64,000 bases of DNA, taken from positions 310,001 through 374,000 of the forward strand of contig NZ_MWQN01000004.1 of the NCBI RefSeq assembly GCF_002024165.1, in the 5' to 3' direction. The translations under genes and the position numbers were made by a program. The DNA is from Embleya scabrispora (lineage in GTDB: Bacteria; Actinomycetota; Actinomycetes; Streptomycetales; Streptomycetaceae). Below, in pieces: positions 7,061-37,929 of this stretch; the first letter of the stretch is position 1, and the number at the start of each line of letters is the position of its first letter. The notes under the pieces were generated by a model. It did not search any database. It saw only the letters and a list, made by a program, of their open reading frames with translations, and was not told the origin of the DNA.

Positions 7061-7068
7061 CGGACCAA
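7023..7068. promoter_or_regulatory. TTGGACC repeats, candidate MocR2 operator
   Basis: TTGGACC occurs at 7023-7029 and again at 7047-7053. An inverted near-copy GGACCAA (complement TTGGTCC) lies at 7062-7068. The direct copies are 24 bp apart, a little over two helical turns. MocR regulators are known to bind direct repeats plus an inverted copy in the space shared with their divergent target, which fits. The last copy overlaps the regulator's own -10 (complement of 7065-7070). Confidence 0.5.
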
Positions 7069-7088
7069 TGTAACGCGAGGGTGAAGTC

Positions 7089-8054: not shown

Positions 8055-8350
8055 CACTCGGCTTCCTCGCGGCGATCGCGCTCATCGGCGTCGCCTCGGC
8101 TACCGGACGCGGCGTACGCGACAGCCGTGATACGGCCTACGGACTGCGGGTACCCACCGCGACACCCCCACCACCCGTATCCCAGCCGGCCGCGACATCG
8201 CATCCCACGAACCGCCACCCACCCGCAGCCGTCGAGGTTGCGGTCGAGGTCGTGTCGGACATTCGACGTCACCACCACCACCGTCACCACCACGTAGTCC
8301 GCCGGCGCAACGGCTTCGGCCTCGCCACCACAGACATTCGTCGCGCTTGA
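8045..8350 (+). CDS. Small His-rich membrane protein, hypothetical
   Basis: A 101-residue open frame whose ATG lies inside the last codons of the methyltransferase (10-base overlap), so translation may be coupled. Residues 1-18 are hydrophobic (a membrane anchor or signal). A Pro/Thr-rich middle follows, then near residues 74-88 a run of seven His broken by one Arg and flanked by Arg clusters. The His cluster could bind metal or nucleic acid. No family is recognised. It ends 11 bases before the stop of the converging LysR gene. Coding potential is moderate. Confidence 0.45.
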   Translation: MWVTLGFLAAIALIGVASATGRGVRDSRDTAYGLRVPTATPPPPVSQPAATSHPTNRHPPAAVEVAVEVVSDIRRHHHHRHHHVVRRRNGFGLATTDIRRA

Positions 8351-8361
8351 CCTCTCGCGCG

Positions 8362-9264
8362 TCAGTCCGCCGGCCAGTGCAGCTCGCGCGCCAGGGTTTT
8401 GGCGACGGCACGGATGCGGCGGTGTAGCGGCGACTGCTCGCGTGGGAGGACCAGGTGGATCGTCAGGCCGGGCGCGCCGCGCAGCGGTCGCCAGGTGAGA
8501 CCGGCCGGTTGCGTCGTGACCGCGGCTTCTCCGGCCGGGGCGAGAGTGTTTCCGTCGAGCAGGTCGCGCTGGGACATGTCGAAAGAGACCGCGGGCGTAT
8601 GGAATCGGGGGCGCGGCCGGGTGTCTCGAAACAGCGCGGACAGCTGATCGTGGATCACGGGGTTGGCCGCACGATCCGGAAGCCGCAGCGGATACGCGGC
8701 CGCGTCGGCGATCTCGATCTCCGGGTGCTCGGCCAGCGGATGGTGCCGCGCCAACTGGACCCCGATGCGCTGACGTCGCAGCAGATACCGGCGCACGCCA
8801 CGGCCCGGCTGTTCACCGCGGGTGATCCCGGCATCGATGCGGCCGTCGGCGACCGCGGGGGAGATCTCCGGTGTCGCCATCGGGACCGCGCCGACCCGGA
8901 GCCCGCTGTTGCCGCGCATCAGCCTGTCCACCAGGGCCGGTACCGTCTCGGCCCCGGTGCTGAGGCTGTATCCCATGCGCAGCGTGCCCAGTTCACCGGC
9001 CGCCGCGCTGCGGGCGGTGTCCCACGCCCGGTCCAGCGCCGCCAGCGCGGGCGGCGCGGACTCCGCCAACGCCGCACCGGCCGTGGTCAATGCGACGCTG
9101 CGTGTGTTGCGGACCAGCAGAGCCGTGCCGAGTTCCGCCTCCAATCGGCGCATCCGGGCGCTGAGCGCGGGCTGTGCGATACCGATCCGTGCGGCCGCGC
9201 GGGTGAAGTTCAACTCCTGCGCCAGCACCAGGAAGTACCGCAGGCTCACCGTGTCCGGCGCCAC
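8362..9264 (-). CDS. LysR-family transcriptional regulator
   Basis: A 300-residue LysR-type regulator, the usual length. An N-terminal winged HTH (residues ~1-62, LNFTRAAARIGIAQPALSAR) is followed by a periplasmic-binding-protein-like effector domain. GTG 9264 is preferred because AAGGGG precedes it and family alignment starts there; the frame extends to 9339. It is divergent from the DUF1330 gene at 9453 across 188 bp containing ATTGATAACGAT (about 9280-9291), an AT-rich near-dyad that could be a LysR box. It probably controls that gene and itself. Confidence 0.85.
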   Translation of the reverse strand: MAPDTVSLRYFLVLAQELNFTRAAARIGIAQPALSARMRRLEAELGTALLVRNTRSVALTTAGAALAESAPPALAALDRAWDTARSAAAGELGTLRMGYSLSTGAETVPALVDRLMRGNSGLRVGAVPMATPEISPAVADGRIDAGITRGEQPGRGVRRYLLRRQRIGVQLARHHPLAEHPEIEIADAAAYPLRLPDRAANPVIHDQLSALFRDTRPRPRFHTPAVSFDMSQRDLLDGNTLAPAGEAAVTTQPAGLTWRPLRGAPGLTIHLVLPREQSPLHRRIRAVAKTLARELHWPAD

Positions 9265-9452
9265 ACGCCCCCCTTGGCGATTGATAACGATCCGTTCTGA
9301 GTCTATCCCGTACCGGTCTTTCCCTCGTCCGCGCATCAAGCCCTAACCTGCGCATACGACGATCCAACCGACGGCGGTACCCGTCGCCGGAATCGATCGA
9401 TCCGAGCGTCGATTCGAAGTCGGACGTGTCCGGCCGAACACAGGAGGTCTCC

Positions 9453-9746
9453 ATGGCCAAGGGCTACTGGGTCAGTGTCTACCCCGCCATTTCCGACCCC
9501 GAGGAGCTGACCGCCTACAACAAACTGGCGGGCCCGGCCGTCCGGGCCGGGGGCGGGCGCGTCCTGTCCAACTTCGGTCGAGTCGTCGCCCACGAGGCCG
9601 GAATCGCGGAACGCGTCGTTCTGATCGAGTTCGACACCTTCGAACAGGCCGTCGCGGCATACGAGAGCGAGGCATACCGGCAGGCGCTGACGGCCCTCCC
9701 CCACGGCTTCCAGCGCGACTTCCGCATCATCGAAGGCATCGACTGA
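9453..9746 (+). CDS. DUF1330 family protein
   Basis: A 97-residue protein of the DUF1330 family, a small dimeric alpha/beta-barrel (ferredoxin-like) fold. It starts with the typical KGYWVSVYPAISDPEEL. GGGRVLSNFGRV in the middle and RVVLIEFDTFEQAVAAYES near residue 65 are hallmarks. ATG 9453 follows a clear AGGAGG (9442-9447). Biochemical roles in the family are mostly unassigned. Divergent orientation from the LysR gene suggests control by it. Confidence 0.85.
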   Translation: MAKGYWVSVYPAISDPEELTAYNKLAGPAVRAGGGRVLSNFGRVVAHEAGIAERVVLIEFDTFEQAVAAYESEAYRQALTALPHGFQRDFRIIEGID

Positions 9747-24245: not shown

Positions 24246-25772
24246 ATGCCCCAAGACCCTCTCATCCGCCGCATCGACCGTTTCGAAGCCCATGTGGCGA
24301 GTCGGCCCGGCCTGCGGCTACGGGTCGCCTGCCCCTCCCAGGAGTTCTCCGAACTCGAGATGCAACAGGGTCTGGGACGCTGGCTGTCCTGTGTGCGGGG
24401 CCTGTGGGAGTCGCTGGGCGTCGCCTCCCGGCCGGACCTGGCCATGCTCATGTTCCAAGCGCCTCCGGTGCCCGCGTCCGTCGAACGGTACCTCCTGGCG
24501 CTGCGACCGGCGGAGGGCCGGAACTCCGTGGCCGACCGGCTTCTTCGGCACGCCCTGATCGGTTTGCCGGACGCTTCCGACCGACACCTGAGCGAGAAAC
24601 TGCTGGAACGGCCCGAACTCCTGGACCGGGTCGGGGCGCTGATCTCCCGGGCACGCGCGCGCGGGCAGGTGGTGGAGCCGTTGTCGTGCTACCAGGCGAG
24701 CACCCGCATGGACGAGGTGGCCGAGCGGATCGGCGTGGAACGCGGTGAGACGCCGAGCAGGACCTTGACGTGGGGCTCGAAAGCCGGTGGCCGCAAAGTG
24801 TTTCGTGCCGGCGGTCTGGCCCACGCCCCGGGCGGTTACGAACCCGTCCACGACATGGCCGCCCTCGCCCGGCAGGCGACCGAACTCGTACGCGTACACG
24901 GGACGAAGCGGTGGCTGGTGAAGATCAACGACGGCTACGGCTCGGGCCACGGTCTCGCCGCCTTCACCCCCGCCGACGCTCGGTATCGCACAGTGCTCAC
25001 CGCCCTGCGGCAGTTGCAGCCACTGACCGAAAACATCTCGCGCGACCGGTTCCTCGAAAGCCTCACCGCCGAAGGGGCGATCATCGAGCAGTATCTTCCG
25101 ACCCCGCCCCGCGGTGAGAAACGCTCGCCGAGCACCCTGCTGTACCTTCACCACAGCGCCGACGGCGGCTTCGACCTACAGTTCCTCGGAACGCACGAAC
25201 AGGTTTTGGGAGCGGACCTGCAATACCTCGGATGCCGCTTTCCCGCCTCGCACGAGTACCGCGGCACCCTCGTCGACATGTCCCTCACGGTCGGCAAGGA
25301 ACTGGGCTCGGTGGGTGTCCGCGGACATGTCGGCATCGACTTCATCGCCCGCAAGGCGGCCGACGGCCGGTGGGACGTCCACGCGATCGAACTGAACCTG
25401 CGCCAGACCGGTACGACACATCCGCATCGAACCGTGCGCGCCCTCCTGCCGGGCACGTGGCCCGAGGACGGACTCTTGACGCACCGGGGCTCCGTCGTCC
25501 ACTACACGGGAACCGACGGGCTGATCTCCCCCGCCTACCGGGGCCTCACACCGGACTCCCTGATCGAGGAGTTGCGGCATCGGCCCGGCCTGGCCTTCGA
25601 CGCGACGTCCGGACGTGGCGTCGTACCTCACTTCTGGACCGCGTTGCGGCCCTACGGGAAGATCGGCGCCACGTTCATCGGCACCTCGCGGGAAGAGTGC
25701 GATGTCCTCCAGCGGGAATTCACCGATCTGCTGGACGGCATGGCCGGGTGTGCGCCGGCGGCGCGGGGGTGA
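24246..25772 (+). CDS. PGM1-type ATP-grasp peptide ligase
   Basis: A 508-residue protein resembling the pheganomycin ligase PGM1 family. ATP-grasp enzymes join a carboxylate to an amine through an acyl phosphate. Visible landmarks: TLTWGSKAGGRKVFRAGG near residue 178 and HAPGGYEPVHDM near 197; the nucleotide-binding stretch WLVKINDGYGSGHGLAAF near 225; IIEQYL near 280; LGTHEQVLGAD and YLGCRFPA near 315-330; and GHVGIDFIARK with HAIELNLRQTGTTHP near 360-390 (metal/ATP Glu-x-Asn). The acyl and amine partners are unknown. Its 3' end overlaps the converging WS/DGAT gene by 53 bp. Confidence 0.8.
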   Translation: MPQDPLIRRIDRFEAHVASRPGLRLRVACPSQEFSELEMQQGLGRWLSCVRGLWESLGVASRPDLAMLMFQAPPVPASVERYLLALRPAEGRNSVADRLLRHALIGLPDASDRHLSEKLLERPELLDRVGALISRARARGQVVEPLSCYQASTRMDEVAERIGVERGETPSRTLTWGSKAGGRKVFRAGGLAHAPGGYEPVHDMAALARQATELVRVHGTKRWLVKINDGYGSGHGLAAFTPADARYRTVLTALRQLQPLTENISRDRFLESLTAEGAIIEQYLPTPPRGEKRSPSTLLYLHHSADGGFDLQFLGTHEQVLGADLQYLGCRFPASHEYRGTLVDMSLTVGKELGSVGVRGHVGIDFIARKAADGRWDVHAIELNLRQTGTTHPHRTVRALLPGTWPEDGLLTHRGSVVHYTGTDGLISPAYRGLTPDSLIEELRHRPGLAFDATSGRGVVPHFWTALRPYGKIGATFIGTSREECDVLQREFTDLLDGMAGCAPAARG

Positions 25773-27033
25773 GCAGGTCGTGCAGGGCGGCGGCCCACAG
25801 GCGGGGCAGGTCGTCGATGCCGTCGAGGTCGGGGTGGGCGGTGAAGGACACGCACGCGGCGTCCTCGTAGGTCATCAGCACGACGGACAGGACGTGGTCG
25901 GCGGGGAGGAAGTTCAGCGGGACGACGCCGTCCACGACCCGTCCGAGCGGACGCAGGCGCCGGGCGGGTCCGGGCACGTTGGTGACCATGACGGTGAACG
26001 AGCGAGGGCGGAAACCGCGCAGCATGACCCAGGCGATCACCGCGCGCGGGCACACGCGCAACACGGTTTCCACGCAGGGGTGGGCGAAGGCGCGGCGGAC
26101 GCGACGCATGCGGTCCGCGATCAGGGACAGGCGGCGGCGTGGGTCCGGTTCGTCGACGGGCAGGCGTGCGCGGGTGGCGGCGAAGCGGTTGCCGACGGTG
26201 GTGTGGTGGTGCCGGTGGATGTGGACGGGGATCAGGGCCACGACGTCGGCGGGGAGCGGGTGTCCGCGCTGGGTGTACCAGGTGCGCAGGGCGCCGGTGA
26301 GGGCCGCGAGGTGCACGTCGTTGACGCTGGTTCGGCCGTGGGTGGTCGCGGCGCGCAGTCGTTCGAGGGGTACCCGGGTCCACGCGTGGCGCTGGGGTGT
26401 GGTGGCGGTTCGTGGCGGGAGGGCCTGTAGGCGTGCCGCCGAGGGGACGGCGAACGCGGGCGTGAGCAGTGCCGTGATCGCGCGTGCGGTGGCCTGTGGT
26501 GTTCGCAGTGTCCGGTGCCAGGGCGTCGGGGGTGGAGGGGCGGTCGCGGGTGCGTCGGGGGCGGGGGTTTGGTCCCCCGCCAGTACCGCGGCGATGTGGT
26601 CGACCATGGTGCTGCCCGATACGCCGTCCATGAGCCGGTGGTGGACGCGCGCGACGAGGGCGAACTGTCCGCGGGCGTGGCCGTGGACGATCCACAGGCC
26701 CACGCCGGTGTCGGGCAGCGGGTGGGTGGAGATGTCGTCGAGGGCCGCGCGCAGGCCCGGTTCGCCCGAGCGGGCCGGCGCCGTGACCTCGAAGAGGTGC
26801 CGGTCCGCTCGGGCCGTCTCCCGTTCGACGGACGGCTCGCCGTCTCCCGGCCGGGCGAGGCGGTCCAGGACCAGGTTCGCCAGGGCGCGTGCCTCCTGCC
26901 GGGTGGGCAGTGGTCCGCTGCACAGGAAGGCGCAGCCGAACACCAGGGTCTGGTTCGGGCGGCGGCGTTGGTAGCGGTCCAGCCCGGCCGTCCACGGGTC
27001 GACGTCGGTGGTGGGGGTGGTCGTGGGGGTCAT
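25720..27033 (-). CDS. WS/DGAT-type acyltransferase
   Basis: A 437-residue member of the wax ester synthase/diacylglycerol acyltransferase family. These transfer acyl groups from CoA (or in relatives, carrier protein) to alcohols. The catalytic HHxxxDG motif is intact in VHHRLMDGVSG near residue 135. Conserved C-terminal features include TVMVTNVPGP near 350 and VPLNFLPADHVLSVVLMTYED near 370-390. ATG 27033 overlaps the PKS stop codon (ATGA), so the two are translationally coupled. That strongly suggests it releases or modifies the PKS product, as PapA-type acyltransferases do for mycobacterial polyketide lipids. Its 3' end overlaps the PGM1 gene on the other strand by 53 bp. Confidence 0.87.
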   Translation of the reverse strand: MTPTTTPTTDVDPWTAGLDRYQRRRPNQTLVFGCAFLCSGPLPTRQEARALANLVLDRLARPGDGEPSVERETARADRHLFEVTAPARSGEPGLRAALDDISTHPLPDTGVGLWIVHGHARGQFALVARVHHRLMDGVSGSTMVDHIAAVLAGDQTPAPDAPATAPPPPTPWHRTLRTPQATARAITALLTPAFAVPSAARLQALPPRTATTPQRHAWTRVPLERLRAATTHGRTSVNDVHLAALTGALRTWYTQRGHPLPADVVALIPVHIHRHHHTTVGNRFAATRARLPVDEPDPRRRLSLIADRMRRVRRAFAHPCVETVLRVCPRAVIAWVMLRGFRPRSFTVMVTNVPGPARRLRPLGRVVDGVVPLNFLPADHVLSVVLMTYEDAACVSFTAHPDLDGIDDLPRLWAAALHDLLTPAPPAHTRPCRPADR

Positions 27034-30000
27034 CGGGGGGCGGCGGTCGTCGAGGGTGCGGGGTGTGGGTGGGCGGGTGCGGCGCCGTCGTGGTCGGGGT
27101 GTCTGCTGGAGGGCACGTCGACGGGGGTGGGCCGGTCCAGGCCGAGGCGGGTGTGGGTGATGCGGGCGATGTCGGCGATCGTGCCGTGACTGCGCAGGAG
27201 TTCCATGGGTGGGATCTCGACGCCGTGGCGCTGTTGGAGGGCGATGAGGAGTTCGGCGCCCATGAGCGAGTCGACGCCGTATTCGTCCAGTCGCCGGGCG
27301 GGGTCGAGCCGTTCGGGGTCGGTGTGCAGGATGTCGGCGAGCATGGCGGTGACGCTTGCGGTCAGCGCGGCCAGGGCGTCCGCGGCGGACAGCGTTTCGA
27401 GGGTGTCGCGGCGTGTGGCACCGGCGGAGCCGGCACCGGCGGGGATCATGGCGGCCATGCGCGGGCGGGTCGCCGACTGCATGATCGCGGCGATCCGGTC
27501 CCAGTTGTAGCGGCCGGCTCCGGCGGCGGCCAACGGCGTGCGCAGGAGGCGTTCGGCGGTGGTGAACGCCTCGGCGGGGGTGAGCGTTTCGATGCCCAGG
27601 CCGTGCAGGCTGGCGGTCAGGTCGTTGCGGGCGACGTACCCGGTGCCGCCGATGGCGCCCCAGGCGGTGGCGAGGGCGGGGCGTCCGTGTTGTCGGCGCC
27701 GGCGGGCCAGGGCTTCGAGGAAGAGGTTTCCCGCGGCGTAGGGGGCCTGGGTGAGGTTTCCGATGGTCGCGGTGCCCGAGGAGTAGAGGAGGAACAGGTC
27801 GCAGTCGCGGTCGCGGGTGAGGCGGTCCAGGACCATCGCCGCGGCGATCTTGGGGGCGAGGACGGCGGTGATGCGTTCGGCGTCCAGGTCGGTCAGCGGG
27901 GCGTCGTCGAGGTGCATCGCGCAGTGGACGACGCCGCCCAGGCGTCGCCCGGCGGCGTCGTATCCCTCGACGAGGGCGCGCATGGCGTCCCAGTCGGTGG
28001 CGTCGACGGCGTGCGCGCGGGCGGTGACGCCACGCGCGCGGAGGGCGCGCAGGAGTTCGTCCGCTCCGGGGGTGTCGGCGCCGCGGCGGCCCACCAGGGC
28101 GAGGTGGCGGGCGCCGAGGTCGGCCAGCCAGTGGGCGGTGGCGGCGCCGAGGCCGCCGAGGCCGCCGGTGATCAGATGGACCGCTTCGGGGTCCACGGCG
28201 AGGGGCTCGGTGGCCGGTTCGATCGTGGCGGGTTCGTCCAGGGGGTCGAAGGCGACCACGACCTTGCCGAGGTGGCGCGAGTGCTGGATCAGGCGGAAGG
28301 CGTCGGTGACTCGGGCCGCGGGGAAGACGCTGTGCGCGAGGGGATGGCACACGCGCTCGCGGATGAGATCGCCGACTTCGGTCAGGAGCGGGCCGATGCG
28401 TTGCGGATCGTCCAGGAGGGCGGTGAGGTCCACTCCGAAGAAGGCGAGGTTGTCGGCGAAGGGCCGTAGCGACAGCGACTTGTTCGCGTAGATGTCGCGC
28501 TTGCCCAGTTCGAGGAATCGGCCTCCCGGGCGCAGGAGTTCCAGGCTGCGGGGGATCGCTTCGCCGGCGAGGGAGTTGAGGACGATGTCGACGCCCTTGC
28601 CGTGGGTGAGTTCGCGCACGTGGTGGGCGAAGTCCAGGGTGCGGGAGTCCAGGACGTGTTCGACGCCCATCGCCTCGAGGTAGACGCGTTTGAGGTCGGT
28701 GCCGGCGGTGGCGATGACGTGTGCCCCGTGGGCGCGGGCGTATTGGATCGCGGCCAGGCCCACCGCCCCGGCGGCGCCGTGGACCAGGACGGTCTCCCCG
28801 GGTTGGATCCGGGCGAGCCGGCCCAGGCTGTAGACGACGGTGGCGTAGGCGACCGGGACGGTGGCGGCCTGGGTGTAGGTGATGTCGTCCGGGATGGGCC
28901 ACATCGTGGAGGCGTGCGCGATGGTGTGCGTGGTCAGTGCGGCGGGCGCGGTGCCGGCAACGCGGTCGCCGGGTCGCAGGTTCGTGACGCCGGGGCCGCA
29001 TGCGGTGACGACGCCGGCGCATTCGAAGCCGGGGCCGAGGGTGGGGCCGCTGACGTCGGCGGGCAGCAGTCCGGTCACCTGCATCACGTCGCGGTAGTTC
29101 AGGGCGGCGGCGTGGACCTCGATCGCGACCTGGCCGGGGCCCGGCCTCGGGGGGTCGATCTCGTGCCAGCCGAGACGGTAGCCCAGGCCCTTGTCGCGCA
29201 CGCGCAGCGCGAAGGGTCGGCCCGTGCCGGGGACGGCGGGTTCGCCGAGGTGCCGCTCGCGGGGGACGAACCGGCCGCGGGGGGTGAGGACGATCTCGTC
29301 CTCGTCGGTGGGTTCGAGGAGTTCGTCCGCCAGGCGCCGGGCGTCGTCGAGCGGGTCCGGGCCGGGCTCCAGGCACACGCGGCGCCCGTCCAGGTCGGGG
29401 TGTTCGTTGGCGACGCACCGTGCCGTCGCCCAGGCCGCGGCGTCCAGGGGATGGGTGACGGCGGCGAACGTGGGCACGGCGCCGCAGGGTCGGGCGACCA
29501 ACCACAGCCGGGTGGGTGTGGTGCGCGGCACACCGTCGAGGGCCGCGGCGACGGCGCGCAGGAGCAGGGTCTGCGCGGTGGCGTGGGCGAGCGCGTCGCG
29601 GGGGTCGTCGGTGTCGGGGCCGCCCAGGAGTACGACGACGTCGACGGCCTCCGGCAGCTCTGTGGCGGCCGGGGCGGGAACGTCCGGGGCCGGACGCGGG
29701 GCCGGCGTCGTCGGCGATCGCAGCAGGTGTTCCCACGCGGCCGGATCCGGTTCGGCGGGCACCACGCGTGCCCGGGCCGCGCCGCTGACGCGCAGTCGCT
29801 CCGCGAGGGCGTGGGCGACCTCTTCCCGGTCGGGGGTGTGCGCGACGACGAGGAAGAGCGTGTCGGAGCGGGCGGGGGTGCTCGCCGGTGCGACCGCGAC
29901 CTCCGGCGCGGTGGCCAGGAGCACGGAGTGGTGGTCGCGGGTGGGCGCGGTGTCGTCTCCGGTGTGGACGATGTCGGTGTAGCCGCAGCGCTCCAGCAGC

Positions 30001-33000
30001 GCCGGCCACCGCTCGCGCGGCAGCAGCGGGGACAGCGGGCGCAGCGCGGTGTCGGTGTGGGCGTGGAAGCTCTCGAGGGTCCCGAAGAGGGGGGCGAGCA
30101 TCTGCGGGTCGTGCGACTCGCCGGCCAGGAGCCGGCCGCCGGGGGCGAGCAGGCGGGTGAGCAGGCGCAGCGACGCGTGGAGGTCCTCGGCGGTGTGCAG
30201 CGCGTTGACGGCGACCACGAGGTCGAACCCGTGTGCGGGGTGGCCCTGTTCGACCGGGTCGGCGTTCAGGTCGAGGACCTGGTAGTCGACGAAGTCGTAG
30301 GCCCGGAAGCGGGTGGCGGCGCGGGAGAAGAACGTCGGGGACACGTCGGTGAAGCGGTACGTGGTGCGGTCGGCGGGCAGGATCGGCAGCAGCGCGGCGG
30401 TCGTGCCGCCGGTGCCGGCGCCCACCTCCAGCACGCGCAGCGGACGGTCCTCGGGCCAGTGGCGCACCATCTCGCGCAGGAGTGCCTGGGCGAGGCGGTT
30501 GTGGAAGCGGCACACCGGTGCGGTGTCGTAGAACTGTTCCAGGACGGTGGTCACCGGGTCCGAGACGAGCAGATCGAGCGGGTCCTGGGCGCCGCGCAGC
30601 ACGCGGTCGCGGTGCGCGGCCTGATGGATGCCCAACGCGCTGTCGACGACGAAGTGGGGCAGGCTCGCGGCGGTGTCGCGGGCGAGTGTTTCGACCGGGA
30701 AGCGCGGCGCGGTCAGCCGCCACCGGCCGTCGGATTCGCCGGCGAGGACCCCGTGGTGTTCCAGTTGGGGGGCGAGCATGGTGATCAGTCGGCGGTGGCG
30801 CGCGAGCATGCCGGCGTCGACCAGGTCGTCGACGTCGAAGGGTTCGGCGGGATCGGTGAGCAGTCCGGCCAGGACGTTGCCGAACGTGCGGGCGGTGTAG
30901 TCCTTGTACGCGTTCACCAGGTGCTCGTAGCCCGAGTGTCGCCAGGCGACGCGCAGCGCGTCGAGGCGGGGTGCGGCGGTCTTCGCCAGGTCCCGCGAGG
31001 GGGGCAGCGGGCAGGGGGCGGCGGGCGCGGTCGGGCGCGGTGCCGCGCGCAGCACCGTGTGGTGCACGGTCAACGCGGTGCCGCGGGGGGCGGCGAATCG
31101 GCGCAGGCGGCATCGGTCCAGTCGGATCGCGACGGTGCCGTGGTCGTCGGTGACCGTGACGTCCCAGCACACCTCGTCGTCGCCGCGAGAGTGTTCGTGC
31201 ACCCACACGTGGCCGGTGGGGGCGGGGGTGTCCCAGATGCGCACCGCGCCGATGGACGCGGGCAGGAATGCCTCCGCGTCGCGGCCCCGGGCGCGCAGCA
31301 GGGGGGCTCCCGCCTGCAGGGCGGCGTCGAGGAGCGCGGGGTGGGCGGTGTAGGGGGTGCCGGGGGCGTCGTGGTGGTAGCGGGCGAGGACGTCGCGTTC
31401 GCCCGTGTGCATCTCGCGCAGGCCCCGGAACGAGGGCCCGTAGTCGAGGCCGGCTTCGGCGCACGCGCGGTAGTGCTCGCCGGCGTCGACGGTGTGCGGG
31501 CAGCGCTCGCGCAGTGCCGTCGGATCCTGGGGGGCGGGGCGGGGCTCCAGGAGGGTTCGTGCCCGGGCGCGGGCGTGTCGGCGCGGTTCGCCGTCGTGGT
31601 CCTCGGTGCTGGTCACGGTCACGATGCCGGTGCCGGGGTCCACGCCCACCTGGGTGCGGACGCGGGCGGGGTCGTCCCAGGGGATCACGAGGGCGGTGTC
31701 GATGCGCAGGTGGTGGAGTTCGACGGGGCCCGGTTCGAGAGCCTGGTGGGCGGCGGCGGCCATTTCCACGAATCCGGTCGCGGGCAGCAGGACCGAACCG
31801 GCCACCTTGTGGTCCTCCAGCCACGGGAGCCGGGCGGGTTCGAGGGTGTTGAGCCACAGGGGTTGCGGCGAGGGCAGTCGTTCGCCGAGGAGCGGGTGGC
31901 GGAGCACCGCGTCGCCGCTGGAGCTGATCCAGTCCTCGCCGGTGCCGCTCCAGTGGCGTTCGCGCTGCCACGGGTAGGCGGGCAGGTGGGTGACCCGGCC
32001 GGGGGTGGGAAAGTACCTGCTCCAGTCGACGTCGGCGCCGGCGGCGATCAGCGTCGCGTGCGTGTCGGCGAGGGCGCTCGGCCCGTCGGTGTCGCGGGAC
32101 AGGGTCGACAGCACGGCGGTGTCGGTGTGCGGGGGCCGGGCGGCGACGCGGCGCAGGTAGGTCCCGAGCACGGGGTGCGGGCCGATCTCCACGAGGATGT
32201 CGGCACCGTCGTCGACGGCTCGTTCGACGGCGGCCGAGAACAGCACGGGCCGGCGTACGTTGTGCCACCAGTACCGCGCGTCGAGTTCGGCGCCGCGGAT
32301 CCCGGTGCCGGTGACGGCGGAGTGGAACGGGATCGCGGGCTGCTCGGGCGTCAGGTCCGCCAGTGCGGTCAGGATGGGGTGTTCCAGGTCGTCCATGGAA
32401 CGACTGTGGAAGGCGTAGTCGAGGGCGAGGTCGCGTACGAACACCCCGCGCGCGGTGAGTTCGGCGAGGAGCTCGGCCAGGGCCGCGGCCTCGCCGGTGA
32501 CCGTGACGTCGTGCGGCGAGTTGAGCGCCGCGATCTCCAGACGACCCTGGTAGGCGGCGATTTCGTCGCGGGCCTGTTGTGGTGACAGTGCGACGGCGGC
32601 CATCCGGCCGCGACCGCGCGCGGTGGCCTGCGCCCTGCTGCGCTCGACGATCACGCGCGCCGCCTGGGCGAGGGTCAAGGCTCGGGAGCAGTAGGCGGCG
32701 GCGACCTCGCCGACGCTGTGTCCGAGCACCATGTCGGGTTCGACGCCCCGATCGGCCAGGGCGTCGACGAGCGCGACCTGGATGGTGAACAGCAGGGGTT
32801 GGGCCACCTCCGTGGCGTCCAGGTCCCAGGTGTCGGCCGGCGCGGCCAGTGTGTGTGCCACCGACCAGCCCAGCAGCGGGGTCAGTTCGGCGTCGACGCG
32901 GGCCACGGCGCGGGCGAACGCCGGGTCTTCGCGTGCCAGGTCCGCGCCCATGCCGGCCCATGGGGCTCCGTTGCCGGCGAAGACGAACGCCACGCGGCCC

Positions 33001-34634
33001 TGCGGGACGGCCACCGCCCGGCCGGCTCCGTGGGCCGGCGGACGACCGGCCGCTGCTTCGCGGGTCGCGTCCTCCGGTTCCGCGCCGGCGAGCCGGGTGA
33101 AGCCGTGGGCGGCGTCGGCGCCCCCGGACGCCAGCACGACCGCGCGATGCGCGTGCCGGCCTCGGCGCCGGCAGGCGGTGTAGGCGATGGCGCGGAATTC
33201 GTCCGGCGGAGCGGCGATCACGCGCTCGGCCATGGCGGTCGCGGCCGCGGTCAGTGCCGCCTCGGTGCGCGCGCTGACCATGATCGGCAGCCCCTCGGGC
33301 GGCATGGGGGGCGCGGCCGGTTCGACGACGGTGGGGGCGGCGGTGAGGACGGCGTGCGCGTTGGCTCCGCCGAACCCGAACGAGTTGACGCCCACGACGG
33401 GGCGCCCGGTCTCGGGCAGCGCCAGGTTGTGGGTCTGCACGCGCAGGCCGAGACCGGCGAAGTCGATGTCCGGGTGCGGCCGTTCGCAGTGCAGCGACGC
33501 GGGCACCATCCGGTGCTCGAGGACCAGCAGCGCCTTGCACAACCCGACCAGCCCCGACACCGGCTCCAGGTGGCCCAGGTTGCTCTTGACCGACCCGATC
33601 GGCAACTCGCCGGTGACGCGCCGGATTCCCAGGGCCCGGCCCACCGCCGTGGCCTCGGCCGGATCGCCCACGGGAGTGCCGGTGCCGTGCGCCTCGAAGT
33701 AGACCAGTTCGTCGGGTCCCACCTCCGCCCGCGCGTACAGACCGCGCAGCAGGTCCTCCTGCGCCTGGGGGTTGGGCAGTGCCAGGCCCAGGGTCCGTCC
33801 GTCGCTGTTGGTCGCGGTGCCCAGGATCACGCCGTGCACACGATCACCGTCGCGCAGCGCGTCCCGGAGGGTCTTCAGGACGACGACCACGCCCCCCTCG
33901 GCGCGGACGAAACCGTCGGCGTCGGCGGAGAAGGAGGCGCATCGGCCGTTCGGCGAGAGCATCGAGGCCTGGGAGAAGCCGATGTACTGGTAGGGCGACA
34001 ACAACAGGTTCGCGCCGCCGCACAGCGCGGTGCGGCTGACCCCGTTCCACAACGTCTCGCAGGCGCGGTCCAGGGCGACCATCGACGACGAACACGCGGT
34101 GTCGATCGCCATGCTCGGGCCGCGCAGGTCGTAGGTGTACGAGAGGCGGTTGGCGGCGATCGCGGCGGAGGCGCCGGTCATGGTGTAGGCGTTGATCCGG
34201 CGCACCGACTTCAGTTGCATGAAGCCGTACGAGTTGTCGCAGATGCCCACACAGACCGCGGTGTCCGATCCGGCCAGCGACTCGGGGGCCAGCGCCGCGT
34301 CGTCCAGGGCCTCGGCGGTCAGTTCCAGCAGCAGGCGCTGCTGGGGGTCGATCTGGCCCGCCTCCTTGGGGGAGATCGCGAAGTAGGCGGCGTCGAAGGA
34401 GGTGATGTCGTCCAGGAAACCCCCGGCCGCGGTACGGCTCTTGCCCGGCCGAGGGCGGGTGGCGTCGACGAACCGGCCGGGGTCGAAGCGGTCGGCGGGC
34501 ACGGTGCCGACCAGGTCCCGACCCTGTTCCAGCGCGCTCCACAGACCGTCCAGGTCCACGAGCCCGCCGGGCAGTCGACAGGCCACCCCGACCACGGCGA
34601 TGGCTTCTCGGTGTTCGGTCTCCCGGTCATGCAT
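27030..34634 (-). CDS. Highly reducing type I PKS with C-methyltransferase
   Basis: A 2534-residue single-module synthase. In order: KS (~10-435; DTACSSS with Cys ~178, EAHGTGTP ~315, KSNLGHLEP ~355); AT (~550-870; GHSVGEVAAAY with Ser ~638, and YAFHS, suggesting malonyl-CoA); DH (~905-1190; EDHKVAGSVLLP with His ~940, HPALLDAALQ); C-methyltransferase (~1320-1560; VLEVGAGTGGTT); ER (~1800-2110; VHGAAGAVGL ~1948); KR (~2150-2330; TGGLGGLGA, LDD motif of B-type KRs, PYAAGN with catalytic Tyr ~2297); ACP (~2420-2500; GVDSLMGAE with the phosphopantetheine Ser). All active-site residues looked for are present. There is no loading module, docking segment or thioesterase, so I infer iterative use, giving a saturated, possibly methyl-branched chain. 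ATG 34634 is 9 bases after GGGA. Confidence 0.92.
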   Translation of the reverse strand: MHDRETEHREAIAVVGVACRLPGGLVDLDGLWSALEQGRDLVGTVPADRFDPGRFVDATRPRPGKSRTAAGGFLDDITSFDAAYFAISPKEAGQIDPQQRLLLELTAEALDDAALAPESLAGSDTAVCVGICDNSYGFMQLKSVRRINAYTMTGASAAIAANRLSYTYDLRGPSMAIDTACSSSMVALDRACETLWNGVSRTALCGGANLLLSPYQYIGFSQASMLSPNGRCASFSADADGFVRAEGGVVVVLKTLRDALRDGDRVHGVILGTATNSDGRTLGLALPNPQAQEDLLRGLYARAEVGPDELVYFEAHGTGTPVGDPAEATAVGRALGIRRVTGELPIGSVKSNLGHLEPVSGLVGLCKALLVLEHRMVPASLHCERPHPDIDFAGLGLRVQTHNLALPETGRPVVGVNSFGFGGANAHAVLTAAPTVVEPAAPPMPPEGLPIMVSARTEAALTAAATAMAERVIAAPPDEFRAIAYTACRRRGRHAHRAVVLASGGADAAHGFTRLAGAEPEDATREAAAGRPPAHGAGRAVAVPQGRVAFVFAGNGAPWAGMGADLAREDPAFARAVARVDAELTPLLGWSVAHTLAAPADTWDLDATEVAQPLLFTIQVALVDALADRGVEPDMVLGHSVGEVAAAYCSRALTLAQAARVIVERSRAQATARGRGRMAAVALSPQQARDEIAAYQGRLEIAALNSPHDVTVTGEAAALAELLAELTARGVFVRDLALDYAFHSRSMDDLEHPILTALADLTPEQPAIPFHSAVTGTGIRGAELDARYWWHNVRRPVLFSAAVERAVDDGADILVEIGPHPVLGTYLRRVAARPPHTDTAVLSTLSRDTDGPSALADTHATLIAAGADVDWSRYFPTPGRVTHLPAYPWQRERHWSGTGEDWISSSGDAVLRHPLLGERLPSPQPLWLNTLEPARLPWLEDHKVAGSVLLPATGFVEMAAAAHQALEPGPVELHHLRIDTALVIPWDDPARVRTQVGVDPGTGIVTVTSTEDHDGEPRRHARARARTLLEPRPAPQDPTALRERCPHTVDAGEHYRACAEAGLDYGPSFRGLREMHTGERDVLARYHHDAPGTPYTAHPALLDAALQAGAPLLRARGRDAEAFLPASIGAVRIWDTPAPTGHVWVHEHSRGDDEVCWDVTVTDDHGTVAIRLDRCRLRRFAAPRGTALTVHHTVLRAAPRPTAPAAPCPLPPSRDLAKTAAPRLDALRVAWRHSGYEHLVNAYKDYTARTFGNVLAGLLTDPAEPFDVDDLVDAGMLARHRRLITMLAPQLEHHGVLAGESDGRWRLTAPRFPVETLARDTAASLPHFVVDSALGIHQAAHRDRVLRGAQDPLDLLVSDPVTTVLEQFYDTAPVCRFHNRLAQALLREMVRHWPEDRPLRVLEVGAGTGGTTAALLPILPADRTTYRFTDVSPTFFSRAATRFRAYDFVDYQVLDLNADPVEQGHPAHGFDLVVAVNALHTAEDLHASLRLLTRLLAPGGRLLAGESHDPQMLAPLFGTLESFHAHTDTALRPLSPLLPRERWPALLERCGYTDIVHTGDDTAPTRDHHSVLLATAPEVAVAPASTPARSDTLFLVVAHTPDREEVAHALAERLRVSGAARARVVPAEPDPAAWEHLLRSPTTPAPRPAPDVPAPAATELPEAVDVVVLLGGPDTDDPRDALAHATAQTLLLRAVAAALDGVPRTTPTRLWLVARPCGAVPTFAAVTHPLDAAAWATARCVANEHPDLDGRRVCLEPGPDPLDDARRLADELLEPTDEDEIVLTPRGRFVPRERHLGEPAVPGTGRPFALRVRDKGLGYRLGWHEIDPPRPGPGQVAIEVHAAALNYRDVMQVTGLLPADVSGPTLGPGFECAGVVTACGPGVTNLRPGDRVAGTAPAALTTHTIAHASTMWPIPDDITYTQAATVPVAYATVVYSLGRLARIQPGETVLVHGAAGAVGLAAIQYARAHGAHVIATAGTDLKRVYLEAMGVEHVLDSRTLDFAHHVRELTHGKGVDIVLNSLAGEAIPRSLELLRPGGRFLELGKRDIYANKSLSLRPFADNLAFFGVDLTALLDDPQRIGPLLTEVGDLIRERVCHPLAHSVFPAARVTDAFRLIQHSRHLGKVVVAFDPLDEPATIEPATEPLAVDPEAVHLITGGLGGLGAATAHWLADLGARHLALVGRRGADTPGADELLRALRARGVTARAHAVDATDWDAMRALVEGYDAAGRRLGGVVHCAMHLDDAPLTDLDAERITAVLAPKIAAAMVLDRLTRDRDCDLFLLYSSGTATIGNLTQAPYAAGNLFLEALARRRRQHGRPALATAWGAIGGTGYVARNDLTASLHGLGIETLTPAEAFTTAERLLRTPLAAAGAGRYNWDRIAAIMQSATRPRMAAMIPAGAGSAGATRRDTLETLSAADALAALTASVTAMLADILHTDPERLDPARRLDEYGVDSLMGAELLIALQQRHGVEIPPMELLRSHGTIADIARITHTRLGLDRPTPVDVPSSRHPDHDGAAPAHPHPAPSTTAAPR

Positions 34635-35042
34635 GTGAACCGTCCCTGTTCGAGTCGGCGAAAGGGCCGTGCGGTGCCCTCGCCCGCGTTCGCGCCGGCG
34701 CTCGACCGATCGTGGCAGCGCCGGGGACGGCGAGGAAACGCGGACGTCACCGAATGGCCTATCGCGGTCCGGGCAGCACGCCCGCCGGGAACTCGTTCGG
34801 GTGAAGTCCGATTCCCCACCGCCCCCGTATCTCCCACCGTCCGAGCCAACCGAATCATCGTTTGGGTGAAGTTGCGCCGACGTCCGGTCCCACACACCCC
34901 GCGGATCGGCAATGATCGCTCGCAACCCGACGCATGCGCTCGCCGCCCGACAGCGACCATGCCGGCGCCCGCGACCCGGTGCGCCGACCACCGCGGTCGA
35001 GCCCGCGCCGCCCCGCCCGGCCGGATCCGCCAGGAGCCTCGA
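34635..35042. promoter_or_regulatory. Divergent PKS/reductase promoter region with direct repeat
   Basis: 408 bp between the divergent PKS and reductase genes with no credible ORF. TCGTTCGGGTGAAGTC (34793-34808) and TCGTTTGGGTGAAGTT (34858-34873) are a direct repeat matching at 14 of 16 positions, 65 bp apart (about six helical turns), so a regulator could bind both on one face of the DNA. AGGAG at 35032-35036 is the ribosome-binding site of the reductase. Confidence 0.45.
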
Positions 35043-36164
35043 TTGTCCGTCCTGTTCACCGGCGCCACCGGTTTCCTCGGCAGCCGCCTGCTGCGCCGCC
35101 TCCTCGACGACGACGATCGGGACGAGCCGATCACCGTCGTCGGGCGCGCGGCCCCGAGCGTGTTGCGTCCGCGCGTGGAGGCCGCCCTGCTGGCGGCGGG
35201 ACGACGGCCCCTTTGCGATGGGGCGCTGCGCCGGTTGCGCTACCTCGCGGGCGACTTGACCGTCCCCGGGCTCGGCTGGGACGCCCGCACCCGCGACGCG
35301 GCGACCGAGGACCTGGACACGATCTGGCACTGCGCCGCGGTGCTGGCCCTGCGCGGGGACCCCGTCCCCCTGTTCAAGACGAACGTCGGCGGCGCGCGCT
35401 CCGTCCTGGCGCTGGCCGAACGAGCCCCCGCCGCCCGTCTGTTCCACGTCAGCACCGCCTACGTCGCGGGCCTGCGACACAGGGGCCACATCCGCGAGTG
35501 CGACCTGAGCGAACGCCACGGATTCCGGACGTACTACGAGGAGACCAAGTTCAACGTCGAACGGCTGATCCACGCCTGGTCCGCGCACCACGAGCGACCC
35601 GCCACCGTCTTTCGGCCCAGCCTCCTGGTCACCGACCGACCGGCGCCTCCGGGCCTGCCCGCCCAGCCGCTGAGCGCCTACGCCCGACTGATCGACGCGA
35701 GCCTGCGCGCGAGGGGCGGGCCCGGCTCCGACGGCGCGGGAGCCACGGCGGACGTACATCTGGCGTTCGACCCGCTCGACAACCTCAACCTGCTCCAGGT
35801 CGACTACGCCGTCCACGCGATGATCCGCGCCGCCGCACACCCGCTCCCCGCGTCGTCGCGGGTGCGCACCCTGCATGTCACCCACCCGCGCAACACCACG
35901 CTGACCGAGGTCCTGCGCGGGTTCGAACTGGCCTGCCCCGGACTTCGCGTGCGCGCTTCGTCTCCGACCCGGACACGTACGCCCAACACCCTGGAGGCGC
36001 TGCTCGCCGACCGGTTGCCCCCGCTGTCCTCCTTCGTCGGGCAACGCCGCACCTACGACCGCGCCAACCTGCTGAGCGCCGTGGGCGACCTGCCCGATCC
36101 GCCCGCCGTCGACCGCGACTACCTCGCCCGCGGCCTGCACCCACGCCCGCCCGAGCCCACCTGA
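35043..36164 (+). CDS. Extended SDR / thioester-reductase-like oxidoreductase
   Basis: A 373-residue NAD(P)-dependent extended short-chain dehydrogenase resembling thioester reductase and fatty acyl-CoA reductase domains. The start of the Rossmann fold LFTGATGFLGSRLLRRLL is at residue ~4, FHVSTAYVAG is near 138 and the catalytic YYEETKFNVERL near 165-175. TTG 35043 is chosen because AGGAG lies 6 bases upstream and the Rossmann fold starts four codons later. It is divergent from the PKS. Family knowledge suggests reductive release of a carrier-bound acyl chain to aldehyde or alcohol. Here it could supply the alcohol for the WS/DGAT, but a 3-beta-HSD-like role on a free metabolite is not excluded. 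Confidence 0.8.
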   Translation: MSVLFTGATGFLGSRLLRRLLDDDDRDEPITVVGRAAPSVLRPRVEAALLAAGRRPLCDGALRRLRYLAGDLTVPGLGWDARTRDAATEDLDTIWHCAAVLALRGDPVPLFKTNVGGARSVLALAERAPAARLFHVSTAYVAGLRHRGHIRECDLSERHGFRTYYEETKFNVERLIHAWSAHHERPATVFRPSLLVTDRPAPPGLPAQPLSAYARLIDASLRARGGPGSDGAGATADVHLAFDPLDNLNLLQVDYAVHAMIRAAAHPLPASSRVRTLHVTHPRNTTLTEVLRGFELACPGLRVRASSPTRTRTPNTLEALLADRLPPLSSFVGQRRTYDRANLLSAVGDLPDPPAVDRDYLARGLHPRPPEPT

Positions 36165-36212
36165 CCGGGTGCGGCACCGCCCTTCCATCCGCGACTCTTC
36201 GGGAGCGTCCGC

Positions 36213-36848
36213 ATGCCCGTCTCCGACCCGCCGGCCCCGCGCGTTCGTCGCGCCCGGCGCGCGCATCCACACACCGAGGTGCGCCGTTTCGCGCTGATCG
36301 CGACCGGCGCCCTGGCGCTGTCCGCCGGCACGCTGTGGGGCACCATCGCCGCCGGCGTACCCGTCTCCTTCGCCGTCTCCGGCGGCACCTTCCGCATCAG
36401 CGCGGACCACCTGTCCGGCAAGGACGCGGTGCAATTCGCCTCCTACCGCACCGACGCCGGCGACCGTCGACATCCGGTGGCGGTGGCGGGCATCGCCGAC
36501 GCCCGCCTCACCAATTTGTGCCAGTCCTCGGTCGCGCACACCCCTTTCGGGGATCTCACGCTGACCATCCGTTCGGGACCGAACACCGCGGTACGGGCCG
36601 AGCACCTGGTCATCGACCTGGACCGACTGAACGGGGACATGACCTTCGGCCAGGTACAGATGGGCCGCGACGCCGCCACCCTCGACGCCGTCCCCGGAGT
36701 CGTCGGAACCCCCGGCGCCTACGGACAACAGGCCCGCACCCTGGAGATCGACAAGCTGCGCGTCCAGGCCAGATCCATCACCGCCGGCACCTTCAGCCTC
36801 ACCGACGCCTCCATGTCCATCACGGCGGGCGACCACTCGTGCCCGTGA
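36213..36848 (+). CDS. DUF6230 family exported protein
   Basis: A 211-residue protein matching DUF6230, a Streptomyces-type surface protein family sometimes labelled cholesterol esterase without evidence. A basic N-terminus precedes a transmembrane/signal segment (~28-52), followed by a beta-rich exported part with FAVSGGTFRISADHLSG, VAVAGIADARLTNLCQS and AGTFSLTDASMSI. GGGAGC lies before ATG 36213. It begins 49 bp after the reductase and its last codons overlap the DUF6114 gene (GTGA), so the run 35043-37929 is probably one operon. Confidence 0.8.
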   Translation: MPVSDPPAPRVRRARRAHPHTEVRRFALIATGALALSAGTLWGTIAAGVPVSFAVSGGTFRISADHLSGKDAVQFASYRTDAGDRRHPVAVAGIADARLTNLCQSSVAHTPFGDLTLTIRSGPNTAVRAEHLVIDLDRLNGDMTFGQVQMGRDAATLDAVPGVVGTPGAYGQQARTLEIDKLRVQARSITAGTFSLTDASMSITAGDHSCP

Positions 36849-37237
36849 CCCCCGCCGCCCCCGCGCCGCGGCGACCGCTCGACCGTCCCGTCCTCGCGGC
36901 GGTGGCCATGACGGCGGCGGCGATCGAACTGGCCTACCTCCCGTTGCGCCGGCCCCGACTGCTCGGCCTCCAAGGCGTCGGCGCCACCTCGTCCGTGCTC
37001 ATCGCCTGCGGCCTGTTGGCCTGTGCCGCACTCGCCCTGTGGCGTCCGGGACGGGCACGCGCGGCCGGTGCCGGGGCCCTCGTCCTGGGTCTGCTGTCGT
37101 GCCCCATGTCCAACCTGGGCGGGTTCCTGATCGGCATGCTCCTGGCAGTTCTGGGTGGATCGCTCGCCCTGGCCTGGCGCGAGACACCACGCCACACCCC
37201 GGAGGAGCGGCACGCGTCGGCGGAGCCCGCCCCGTGA
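36845..37237 (+). CDS. DUF6114 family membrane protein
   Basis: A 130-residue protein with about four transmembrane helices matching DUF6114, the usual partner of DUF6230. The SNLGGFLIGMLLAVLGGSLALAW stretch near residue 82-104 is characteristic, with a short charged tail. GTG 36845 overlaps the previous stop and its own stop overlaps the next start, both as GTGA. Function unknown; with DUF6230 it probably forms an envelope complex. Confidence 0.8.
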   Translation: MTPAAPAPRRPLDRPVLAAVAMTAAAIELAYLPLRRPRLLGLQGVGATSSVLIACGLLACAALALWRPGRARAAGAGALVLGLLSCPMSNLGGFLIGMLLAVLGGSLALAWRETPRHTPEERHASAEPAP

Positions 37238-37929
37238 GCGCACCGGGCGCACATCGCACCGTGCCGACGCTCCTGACCCTGGCGGTCGCCCTGGCCCTGA
37301 CGGCAGCCACGATCGACCCCTCCCCCGGCGCGGTCCTCCCGCCGCCGACGCAGTTCCCGCCACCCGACGCCGCGTCGACGCAGGGCCCACCGCAGACCGA
37401 ACTCCGCTGCGTTGCCTCGGCGTTGGCCTCGTCGTCCGCGTTTGGCCCCGAGCAGATCCACGCGTTGGCCGCGTGTCCGGCCGCCACGAACCGGCCACCA
37501 CTGCGATCGGCCACCGCGCGGGACCGGTTGACCGCACGAAGGCTGATCATCGTCGGCCTCGACTGCTCCCGGGCGGCCCTCGCGGGCGGAACCTGCCACG
37601 CGCTGTCCATCACCTTGGACGACGTCACCCACCTGCACGGACGCCCCGACGGCGGCTGCCTGCACGTCGACCACGTCACCGCCCGCGGCGCGGTACGCCT
37701 GAGAGCCGACTCCTTCACCGGCCGACTCTTCGGGGTCCTGCCGATCACCCTCTCCACCCGCGCCGTACCGCCGATCCCCCTGCCCCACCTCGTATTGACC
37801 GACGTGCACGCCGACGGAATCGCCCTGTCCGCCGACGAGGTGCACGCCGGGCACACCACCTTCGCCGGCGACGAGCGGCCCGAATGCCACGACCCGCGGC
37901 CCGAGTTCGGCGGGACGGCGGCGCGGTGA
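37234..37929 (+). CDS. Secreted protein in the DUF6230/DUF6114 operon
   Basis: A 231-residue exported protein of unknown family. An N-terminal signal segment (residues ~8-30) is followed by a Pro-rich linker, then a Cys-containing beta-rich domain (CSRAALAGGTCHALSITLDDV; LVLTDVHADGIALSADEVH). The repetitive beta-strand pattern recalls DUF6230, so it may be a distant relative. GTG 37234 overlaps the DUF6114 stop (GTGA), indicating coupled translation. It is the last gene of the reductase operon. Confidence 0.65.
   Translation: MSAPGAHRTVPTLLTLAVALALTAATIDPSPGAVLPPPTQFPPPDAASTQGPPQTELRCVASALASSSAFGPEQIHALAACPAATNRPPLRSATARDRLTARRLIIVGLDCSRAALAGGTCHALSITLDDVTHLHGRPDGGCLHVDHVTARGAVRLRADSFTGRLFGVLPITLSTRAVPPIPLPHLVLTDVHADGIALSADEVHAGHTTFAGDERPECHDPRPEFGGTAAR

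Follow-up and report, generated by a model that had tools for sequence, protein, structure and literature searches.

The locus described here lies in a window of 64,000 nucleotides from Embleya scabrispora (contig NZ_MWQN01000004.1, positions 310,001 to 374,000), the genome of which measures 10.96 Mb. A 2.4-kb stretch shows 91% identity to Embleya sp. NBC_00888. The locus is built around a stand-alone type I polyketide synthase (PKS) and comprises six genes, which are confirmed to be real and to lie at the window coordinates given here, with the PKS gene intact. The PKS, a protein of 2534 amino acids, is encoded on the minus strand (27030..34634). Its stop codon overlaps, as ATGA (CGATGACC), the ATG of a second minus-strand gene (25720..27033) for a 437-residue O-acyltransferase of the wax ester synthase/diacylglycerol acyltransferase (WS/DGAT) type. 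On its other side, a shared intergenic region (34635..35042) separates the PKS gene from a divergent operon on the plus strand. This operon opens with a gene for an extended short-chain dehydrogenase/reductase (SDR; 35043..36164) and continues with genes for a DUF6230 protein (36213..36848), a DUF6114 membrane protein with several hydrophobic segments (36839..37237) and a secreted protein (37234..37929). The DUF6230 and DUF6114 genes share 10 bp, and those for DUF6114 and the secreted protein overlap as GTGA. Both the ATGA overlap and the divergent operon with its coupled genes had been described in an original prediction, and the window sequence, coordinates and overlaps bear them out. The SDR gene ends at 36164 and begins at either ATG 34959 or TTG 35043, the latter being more likely because it is preceded by AGGAG and homologous frames begin at the matching place. 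The intergenic region is 408 bp long with the TTG start and 324 bp long with the ATG.

Along the PKS, Pfam matches a ketosynthase (KS, residues 10-384) with its C-terminal extension (386-500; together 33345..34607, PF00109/PF02801), an acyltransferase (AT, 550-864; 32043..32987, PF00698), a dehydratase (DH, 913-1184; 31083..31898, PF21089 and PF14765), a C-methyltransferase core (cMT, 1402-1502; 30129..30431, PF08242), an enoylreductase (ER, 1832-2127; 28254..29141, PF08240/PF00107/PF13602), a ketoreductase (KR, 2151-2328; 27651..28184, PF08659) and an acyl carrier protein (ACP, 2428-2491; 27162..27353, PF00550), all on the minus strand. The Pfam scan matched no thioesterase (TE) in this protein and, because the KS begins at residue 10, neither a loading module nor a docking segment could fit in front of it. 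The complete KS-AT-DH-cMT-ER-KR-ACP protein that had been predicted, lacking loading module, docking segment and TE, is thus confirmed. Readable motifs are TACSSS, EAHGTGT and NLGHLE in the KS, GHSVG and YAFHS in the AT, HKVAGSVLLP and LDAALQ in the DH, LEVGAGTGG and NALHTA in the cMT, GVDSL in the ACP, the glycine motifs of the ER and KR, and the KR S-Y-N residues. On these motifs, the active sites can be read as intact. The AT motif YAFHS recurs in 22 of the 34 members of the PKS clade described below and, by a general motif rule, marks a malonyl-type domain. It therefore points to malonyl-CoA as the extender, in which case methyl branches would come from the cMT.

Relatives of the PKS were sought with a methyltransferase-region query. 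Against 200 genomes of the family it returned 23 matches, that of the window included, at E <1e-50 in 20 genomes, and all of these except the frame-broken G026 have open frames of ~2400 amino acids or more. In G026 (L021 8260-8826) the KS and AT parts lie in different frames ~560 bases apart, the gene being either broken or insert-bearing. A scan of GTDB genomes (at least 592 stretches, 202 relatives, 79 loci kept) found relatives in Streptomyces klenkii (L106), S. sp. NBRC 110611 (L107), S. rimosus (L110), Nocardia suismassiliense (L111) and S. roseoverticillatus (L114), among others. Of the 51 rows in a KS tree, 34 form a single actinobacterial clade of stand-alone PKSs (support 100/100), within which the window groups with G026 and G222 (100/97). 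Counts out of 34 refer to this clade; outside it stand L119 (a duplicate of G027), G007a (KS match too short), G175 (half-fetched stretch), L115 (no KS match), G020 (outside the clade in the tree) and the plasmid loci L284-L286, which are not in the tree. The GTDB loci extend ~6-7 kb to each side, and the downstream flank is short in G026 (2.3 kb), G027 (0.4 kb) and L116 (14 bases).

In a second KS tree, built with sampled clade members and 22 modular KS domains from five loci, the two groups separate (98/96), and on this split a modular assembly-line origin of the window PKS is rejected. As predicted, the enzyme stands alone: it is one complete module by itself, without docking, loading or TE domains, and its KS falls outside the modular cis-AT group. 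Among solved structures it most resembles mycocerosic acid synthase (MAS, 917 bits), with erythromycin PKS modules (692) next and animal fatty acid synthase (635) and the fungal LovB (603) further down. The originally proposed likeness to fungal highly reducing PKSs therefore holds for the order of domains but not for sequence, in which all three of the others are closer. The best NCBIfam score, to NF045894 (PKS_plus_SDR), is 1104.6 bits against a cut-off of 1740, and the MAS/Pks2 model NF041183 scores 1090 bits against 2400; neither cut-off is reached.

The DUF6230 and DUF6114 genes lie together beside five of the 34 clade PKSs (the window, G222, G234, L107 and L114), divergently in three and codirectionally downstream in two, of which L107 is one. 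From a density of 100 DUF6230 copies per 61 genomes (481.5 Mb in total), and with flanks of 6 kb to either side of the 33 non-window loci, 0.082 linkages would be expected by chance, and four are seen (P 1.8e-6). This and the other linkage P-values are indicative, because the rows share ancestry. G222 has the complete divergent set of SDR, methyltransferase, DUF6230, DUF6114 and secreted protein genes; the SAM methyltransferase gene (L066 13316-14212) sits between those for the SDR and DUF6230 in an operon that otherwise matches that of the window.

Gathering cut-offs are exceeded by DUF6230 (PF19741, 151 bits) and DUF6114 (PF19609, 77 bits), and the same is true of the principal Pfam model for every PKS domain. 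The DUF6230 protein has a hydrophobic N-terminal stretch and two cysteines, 103 and 210, that are invariant in a 19-sequence alignment. Its best profile match to a solved structure has an E of 0.23, and no structural relative is proposed. DUF6230 is found in 49 of 61 sampled genomes, and in 42 other regions, chosen by hand from the 100 copies and leaving aside those at PKS/SDR loci (window, G007 C1), it is accompanied by DUF6114 in 40. One common locus of the pair has neighbours that we take to be pyruvate kinase-like, acetate kinase-like and regulator-like. As the two genes nearly always stand together and such regions seldom contain a KS, the pair is a general one that the PKS clade has recruited. 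A DUF6230 tree, with SH-aLRT as its sole support measure, unites the window, G222, L107 and L022 at 100% on a long stem, while G234 and L114 belong to a second group, the six other members of which have no KS in the fetched stretch. Two DUF6230 lineages thus occur at clade PKSs, and at least two recruitments are implied. L022, on plasmid pSCATT of S. cattleyicolor (6140-9655), has an operon of SDR, DUF6230, DUF6114 and secreted protein genes in which the SDR is frame-broken, with a divergent 101-residue KR fragment of a clade PKS; it is apparently a decayed copy of the window arrangement.

The secreted protein has no Pfam match. By profile comparison it resembles the C-terminal part of the DUF6114 proteins in G234 and L114 (hhalign probability 90.8%, E 1.2e-6, 88 columns), a likeness seen at profile level, single BLASTP comparisons giving at best E 0.001. 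A domain fused to DUF6114 elsewhere is therefore encoded in the window by a separate, overlapping gene. Homology of the secreted protein to DUF6230 was considered and rejected (hhalign 0.5%). In G234 a gene of the protein-arginine deiminase family (L074 11340-13133; PF03068, 242 bits) adjoins the DUF6114 fusion gene. The open-access literature searched yielded no function for DUF6230 or DUF6114, the former occurring once in one paper (PMC12835213) and the latter in none.

The SDR matches NAD_binding_4 (PF07993) at 113.4 bits, above the cut-off of 20.1, and has the features of an extended SDR: the Rossmann motif TGxxGFLG (TGATGFLG), the serine, and YxxxK (YEETK). Counting matches with E up to 1e-12, it lies beside ten of the 34 clade PKSs (the window, G222, G026, G214, G051, G151b, L121, L113, L111 and L114), in divergent, upstream or downstream position; in L114 it overlaps the PKS stop codon. 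Weaker matches in G228 (E 8e-8) and G124 (E 5e-7) are not counted. Seven of 11 regions around SDR homologues contain a KS match, belonging to clade PKSs in two and to other PKS types at 28-34% in five (L027 and L028 being one orthologous pair). Three others, a single orthologous set from the genus of the window, have a weak WS/DGAT match. An initial GTDB search that used the SDR as query yielded no relative.

MMPL-family genes lie within 8 kb of six of the 34 PKSs (G214, G051, G151b, L121, L106 and L109), and also at the plasmid locus L284, outside the tree. Chance would give 0.70 (P 9e-5, or 8e-4 if the near-identical pair G151b/L121 is counted as one), the background being half of 215 matches, since most genes match twice. 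DUF6230 or MMPL genes accompany seven of the ten loci with an SDR and four of the 24 without (P 0.005); when the window and the near-duplicate L121 are removed the contrast is 5/8 against 4/24 (P 0.02). On the KS tree, the SDR and DUF6230 labels each require five changes by parsimony. In two further members, G228 (L078) and G124 (L086), the PKS has as its divergent neighbours two KASIII-like genes together with genes for an AMP ligase and an SDR (in G228 the ligase and one of the KASIII-like genes were tested against Pfam; the G124 set comes from the gene list). We take this set to resemble the Ole/lipstatin genes for head-to-head condensation. A lipid setting for the clade is strengthened by this adjacency.

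The WS/DGAT protein matches WS_DGAT_cat (PF03007, 34.4 bits against 23.6) and WS_DGAT_C (PF06974, 66.1 against 20.7) and reads HHRLMDG at the HHxxxDG motif. It does not reach the cut-off of the wax ester/triacylglycerol synthase subfamily TIGR02946 (159.5 against 309.95 bits). The slot that it occupies overlaps the end of the PKS gene by 3 to 6 bases and is filled by a TE gene in G103 and L117, the SDR gene in L114, an MMPL gene in L106 and presumably an ATP-pyrophosphatase-like gene in L113. In G151a (L095 3261-4634) the slot is taken by a gene for a 457-residue protein of no known family and without a Pfam match, followed by an AurF-like oxygenase gene. The position of the WS/DGAT gene in this slot suggests that, in the window, the chain is released by acyl transfer.

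From these observations we tentatively propose, giving it a little less than an even chance, that the PKS acts iteratively, methylating and reducing as it builds an acyl chain, and that this chain goes into an alcohol or ester lipid placed at the cell envelope together with DUF6230 and DUF6114. By analogy with other stand-alone PKSs of Streptomyces, the single module would act in repeated rounds, its own ACP carrying the growing acyl chain, which would be reduced and C-methylated. Rather than being hydrolysed by a TE, the chain may then be passed on, the translationally coupled WS/DGAT transferring it to an alcohol. That alcohol would in turn probably come from the divergently transcribed SDR, through reduction of an acyl thioester. 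The hydrophobic ester or alcohol might finally be handled at the envelope by the exported and membrane proteins, DUF6230, DUF6114 and the secreted domain. The PKS has intact domains and motifs, its KS belongs to a separate clade, and its linkage with the SDR and with DUF6230/6114 is recurrent. Iteration, methyl branching, the order of the release steps, the ester product and the envelope role are inferred, and the lipid and envelope frame is better supported than a wax ester in particular. That the closest solved match, MAS, is a lipid-making enzyme counts in favour of the proposal. The original interpretation is in this sense partly supported, its product chemistry (iteration, a saturated methyl-branched chain, an alcohol and an ester) being what we infer from the genes.

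Several observations weigh against this proposal. Three relatives (G180, G228 and G124) have a changed glycine motif in the cMT, and methylation therefore need not be general in the clade. No SDR is present in the flank seen at 24 of the 34 loci, nor DUF6230 at 29. Taken singly, DUF6230 shows no significant association with the SDR (P 0.14), and MMPL a borderline one (P 0.048). DUF6230 and MMPL (five and six of 34) never coincide, an exclusion that is itself not significant (P 0.56). A KS match is present in just one of the 42 other DUF6230-DUF6114 regions, ~7 kb away. A DUF6230 subfamily exclusive to these PKSs, first suggested by the tree, is weakened by L317 and L318, close relatives of the window protein without a clade PKS within 10 kb. 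L317 has a KS of a different type ~2.5 kb away and L318 has none, so that of six close members three are at an intact clade PKS, L022 is beside remnants and two are without, which tells against a dedicated subfamily. The methyltransferase region of the PKS finds no close homologue in three congeners: two are without any match, and the third has one of 35% in another PKS. The cluster is therefore accessory. TE genes are present at five of the 34 loci (G166, G103 and G151b by Pfam, L117 by similarity only, and L121), a P450 gene in G142a and a desaturase gene in G007b; as relatives carry these or none of the genes sought, the class of product probably differs between them. The SDR, predicted to be thioester reductase-like, belongs to NAD_binding_4 and has an intact YxxxK motif but falls below the thioester-reductase cut-off (TIGR01746, 97.3 against 213.35 bits), and its reduction of an acyl thioester is for these reasons plausible only.

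The WS/DGAT gene is the least conserved part of the arrangement, and its pairing with the PKS is local and rare. It is present at two of the 34 loci, the window and G214, where a gene with WS_DGAT_cat (38.3 bits) and HHAVHDG lies 3.6 kb upstream of the PKS; this second copy was missed by WS_DGAT_C and found with PF03007. G214 is the second locus with PKS and SDR as well as WS/DGAT and, in its case, MMPL. Among 100 relatives there are only two homologues of the window protein (E up to 1e-30, 35-36% identity), one of them in its own genome. WS_DGAT_C is matched in 15 of 23 searched genomes (20 with the PKS and three congeners without), and only the window copy is at a clade PKS. Except for G214, the homologue and neighbourhood searches do not bear out WS/DGAT as a conserved partner. 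The co-conservation that the original prediction called for thus holds for the SDR and for DUF6230/6114 but scarcely for WS/DGAT, and the PKS-WS/DGAT pair, found at one of the 33 other loci, is weakened as its headline.

This scarcity bears on an alternative in which the SDR alone releases the chain reductively, as an aldehyde or alcohol, and WS/DGAT is a recent local addition that modifies the product or acts on an unrelated substrate. The SDR is conserved at more clade loci than WS/DGAT, it overlaps the PKS stop in L114, and it accompanies the closest PKS relatives, G026 and G222, where no WS/DGAT occurs in the stretch fetched around the PKS; that of G026 is short downstream, but its whole genome has no WS_DGAT_C match. 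With the ATGA coupling in the window, the second WS/DGAT in G214 and the missed thioester-reductase cut-off on the other side, we consider release by the SDR alone to be unlikely. It is likewise doubtful that the product is an ordinary soluble bioactive polyketide, with the SDR as a tailoring reductase and DUF6230/6114 as neighbours with a separate envelope function. The TE, P450 and desaturase genes of other members would suit such a product, as would the wide distribution of DUF6230, mostly away from PKSs; however, the DUF6230/6114 linkage is ~50 times that expected by chance, involves two DUF6230 lineages and both orientations, and MMPL and fatty acid-type condensation genes lie beside other clade members. 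A role for the PKS as a single module in a longer assembly line, encoded in another part of the genome, is very improbable, since nothing direct speaks for it beyond non-ribosomal peptide synthetase (NRPS)-type open reading frames in the window, and the position of its KS outside the modular group, the lack of room for a docking segment and the 22 further long single-frame homologues with different neighbours returned by the family search all argue against it.

The proposal of an iterative PKS supplying an envelope lipid can be set beside known systems. PapA acyltransferases partner the mycobacterial PKSs of the MAS/Pks2 type, and MAS-type enzymes introduce methyl branches from methylmalonyl-CoA, without a cMT. 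The window shares with these systems its closest solved PKS and an acyltransferase beside the PKS, and some clade members have MMPL genes nearby. It differs in that the PKS has a cMT and an AT reading YAFHS and falls under the Pks2 cut-off, the acyltransferase is WS/DGAT rather than PapA, and DUF6230/6114 occurs at loci in which MMPL is not seen. MAS and Pks2 and export by MmpL are treated in PMC5064953 and PMC1238737. Fungal highly reducing PKSs of the LovB type have the same domain order; the window PKS, apart from its lower similarity to LovB than to MAS, belongs to a bacterial clade and has an intact ER motif in cis. LovB uses a separate ER. Stand-alone PKSs are already known: iterative or monomodular examples in Streptomyces are reported in PMC9045324 and PMC10308959, which cite Wang et al. 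2020, and like the window they have a single complete module with few auxiliary genes and reported or proposed iterative use. A linear plasmid of S. rimosus carries a MAS-like stand-alone PKS (PMC9045324); the species also has the clade member L110, and the two genes are not equated here. PfSgaA of Pseudomonas fluorescens is a bacterial iterative type I PKS that makes a lipid chain, for sphingolipids, but, according to PMC12134224, this passes to a PLP-dependent enzyme of the serine palmitoyltransferase type and not to an SDR or WS/DGAT. Among the top open-access literature matches listed, none describes a stand-alone PKS combined with an SDR and DUF6230/6114 or with WS/DGAT. The recurrent link to DUF6230/6114 is the new part, none having been found in the open-access literature searched.

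A more speculative extension, which we regard as improbable, is that DUF6230, DUF6114 and the exported domain linked to DUF6114 together make up a module of the streptomycete envelope for receiving or anchoring lipids made by PKSs, in the place taken by MMPL exporters beside sister PKSs. The load in the window would be a methyl-branched ester of wax type, and this would be a first role for both families. DUF6230 and DUF6114 are a near-obligate pair in most sampled relatives, and their repeated recruitment by a lipid-type PKS clade offers a concrete, testable hypothesis as to their substrate. Were this true, streptomycetes would possess an envelope pathway for polyketide lipids that parallels the mycobacterial logic of PKS, acyltransferase and MmpL, and a source of C-methylated wax-type esters that does not draw on methylmalonyl-CoA.

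Beyond the locus, an ATP-grasp-like gene (24246-25772, plus strand; PF24923, 46 bits) is convergent with the WS/DGAT gene, their 3' ends overlapping by 53 bases. Two long open reading frames of 1603 and 988 amino acids occupy 56083-63857 on the minus strand, ~18 kb from the PKS locus. Part of the former matches plasmid genes annotated as NRPS/adenylation, and the latter is of NRPS type judging by its sequence alone.

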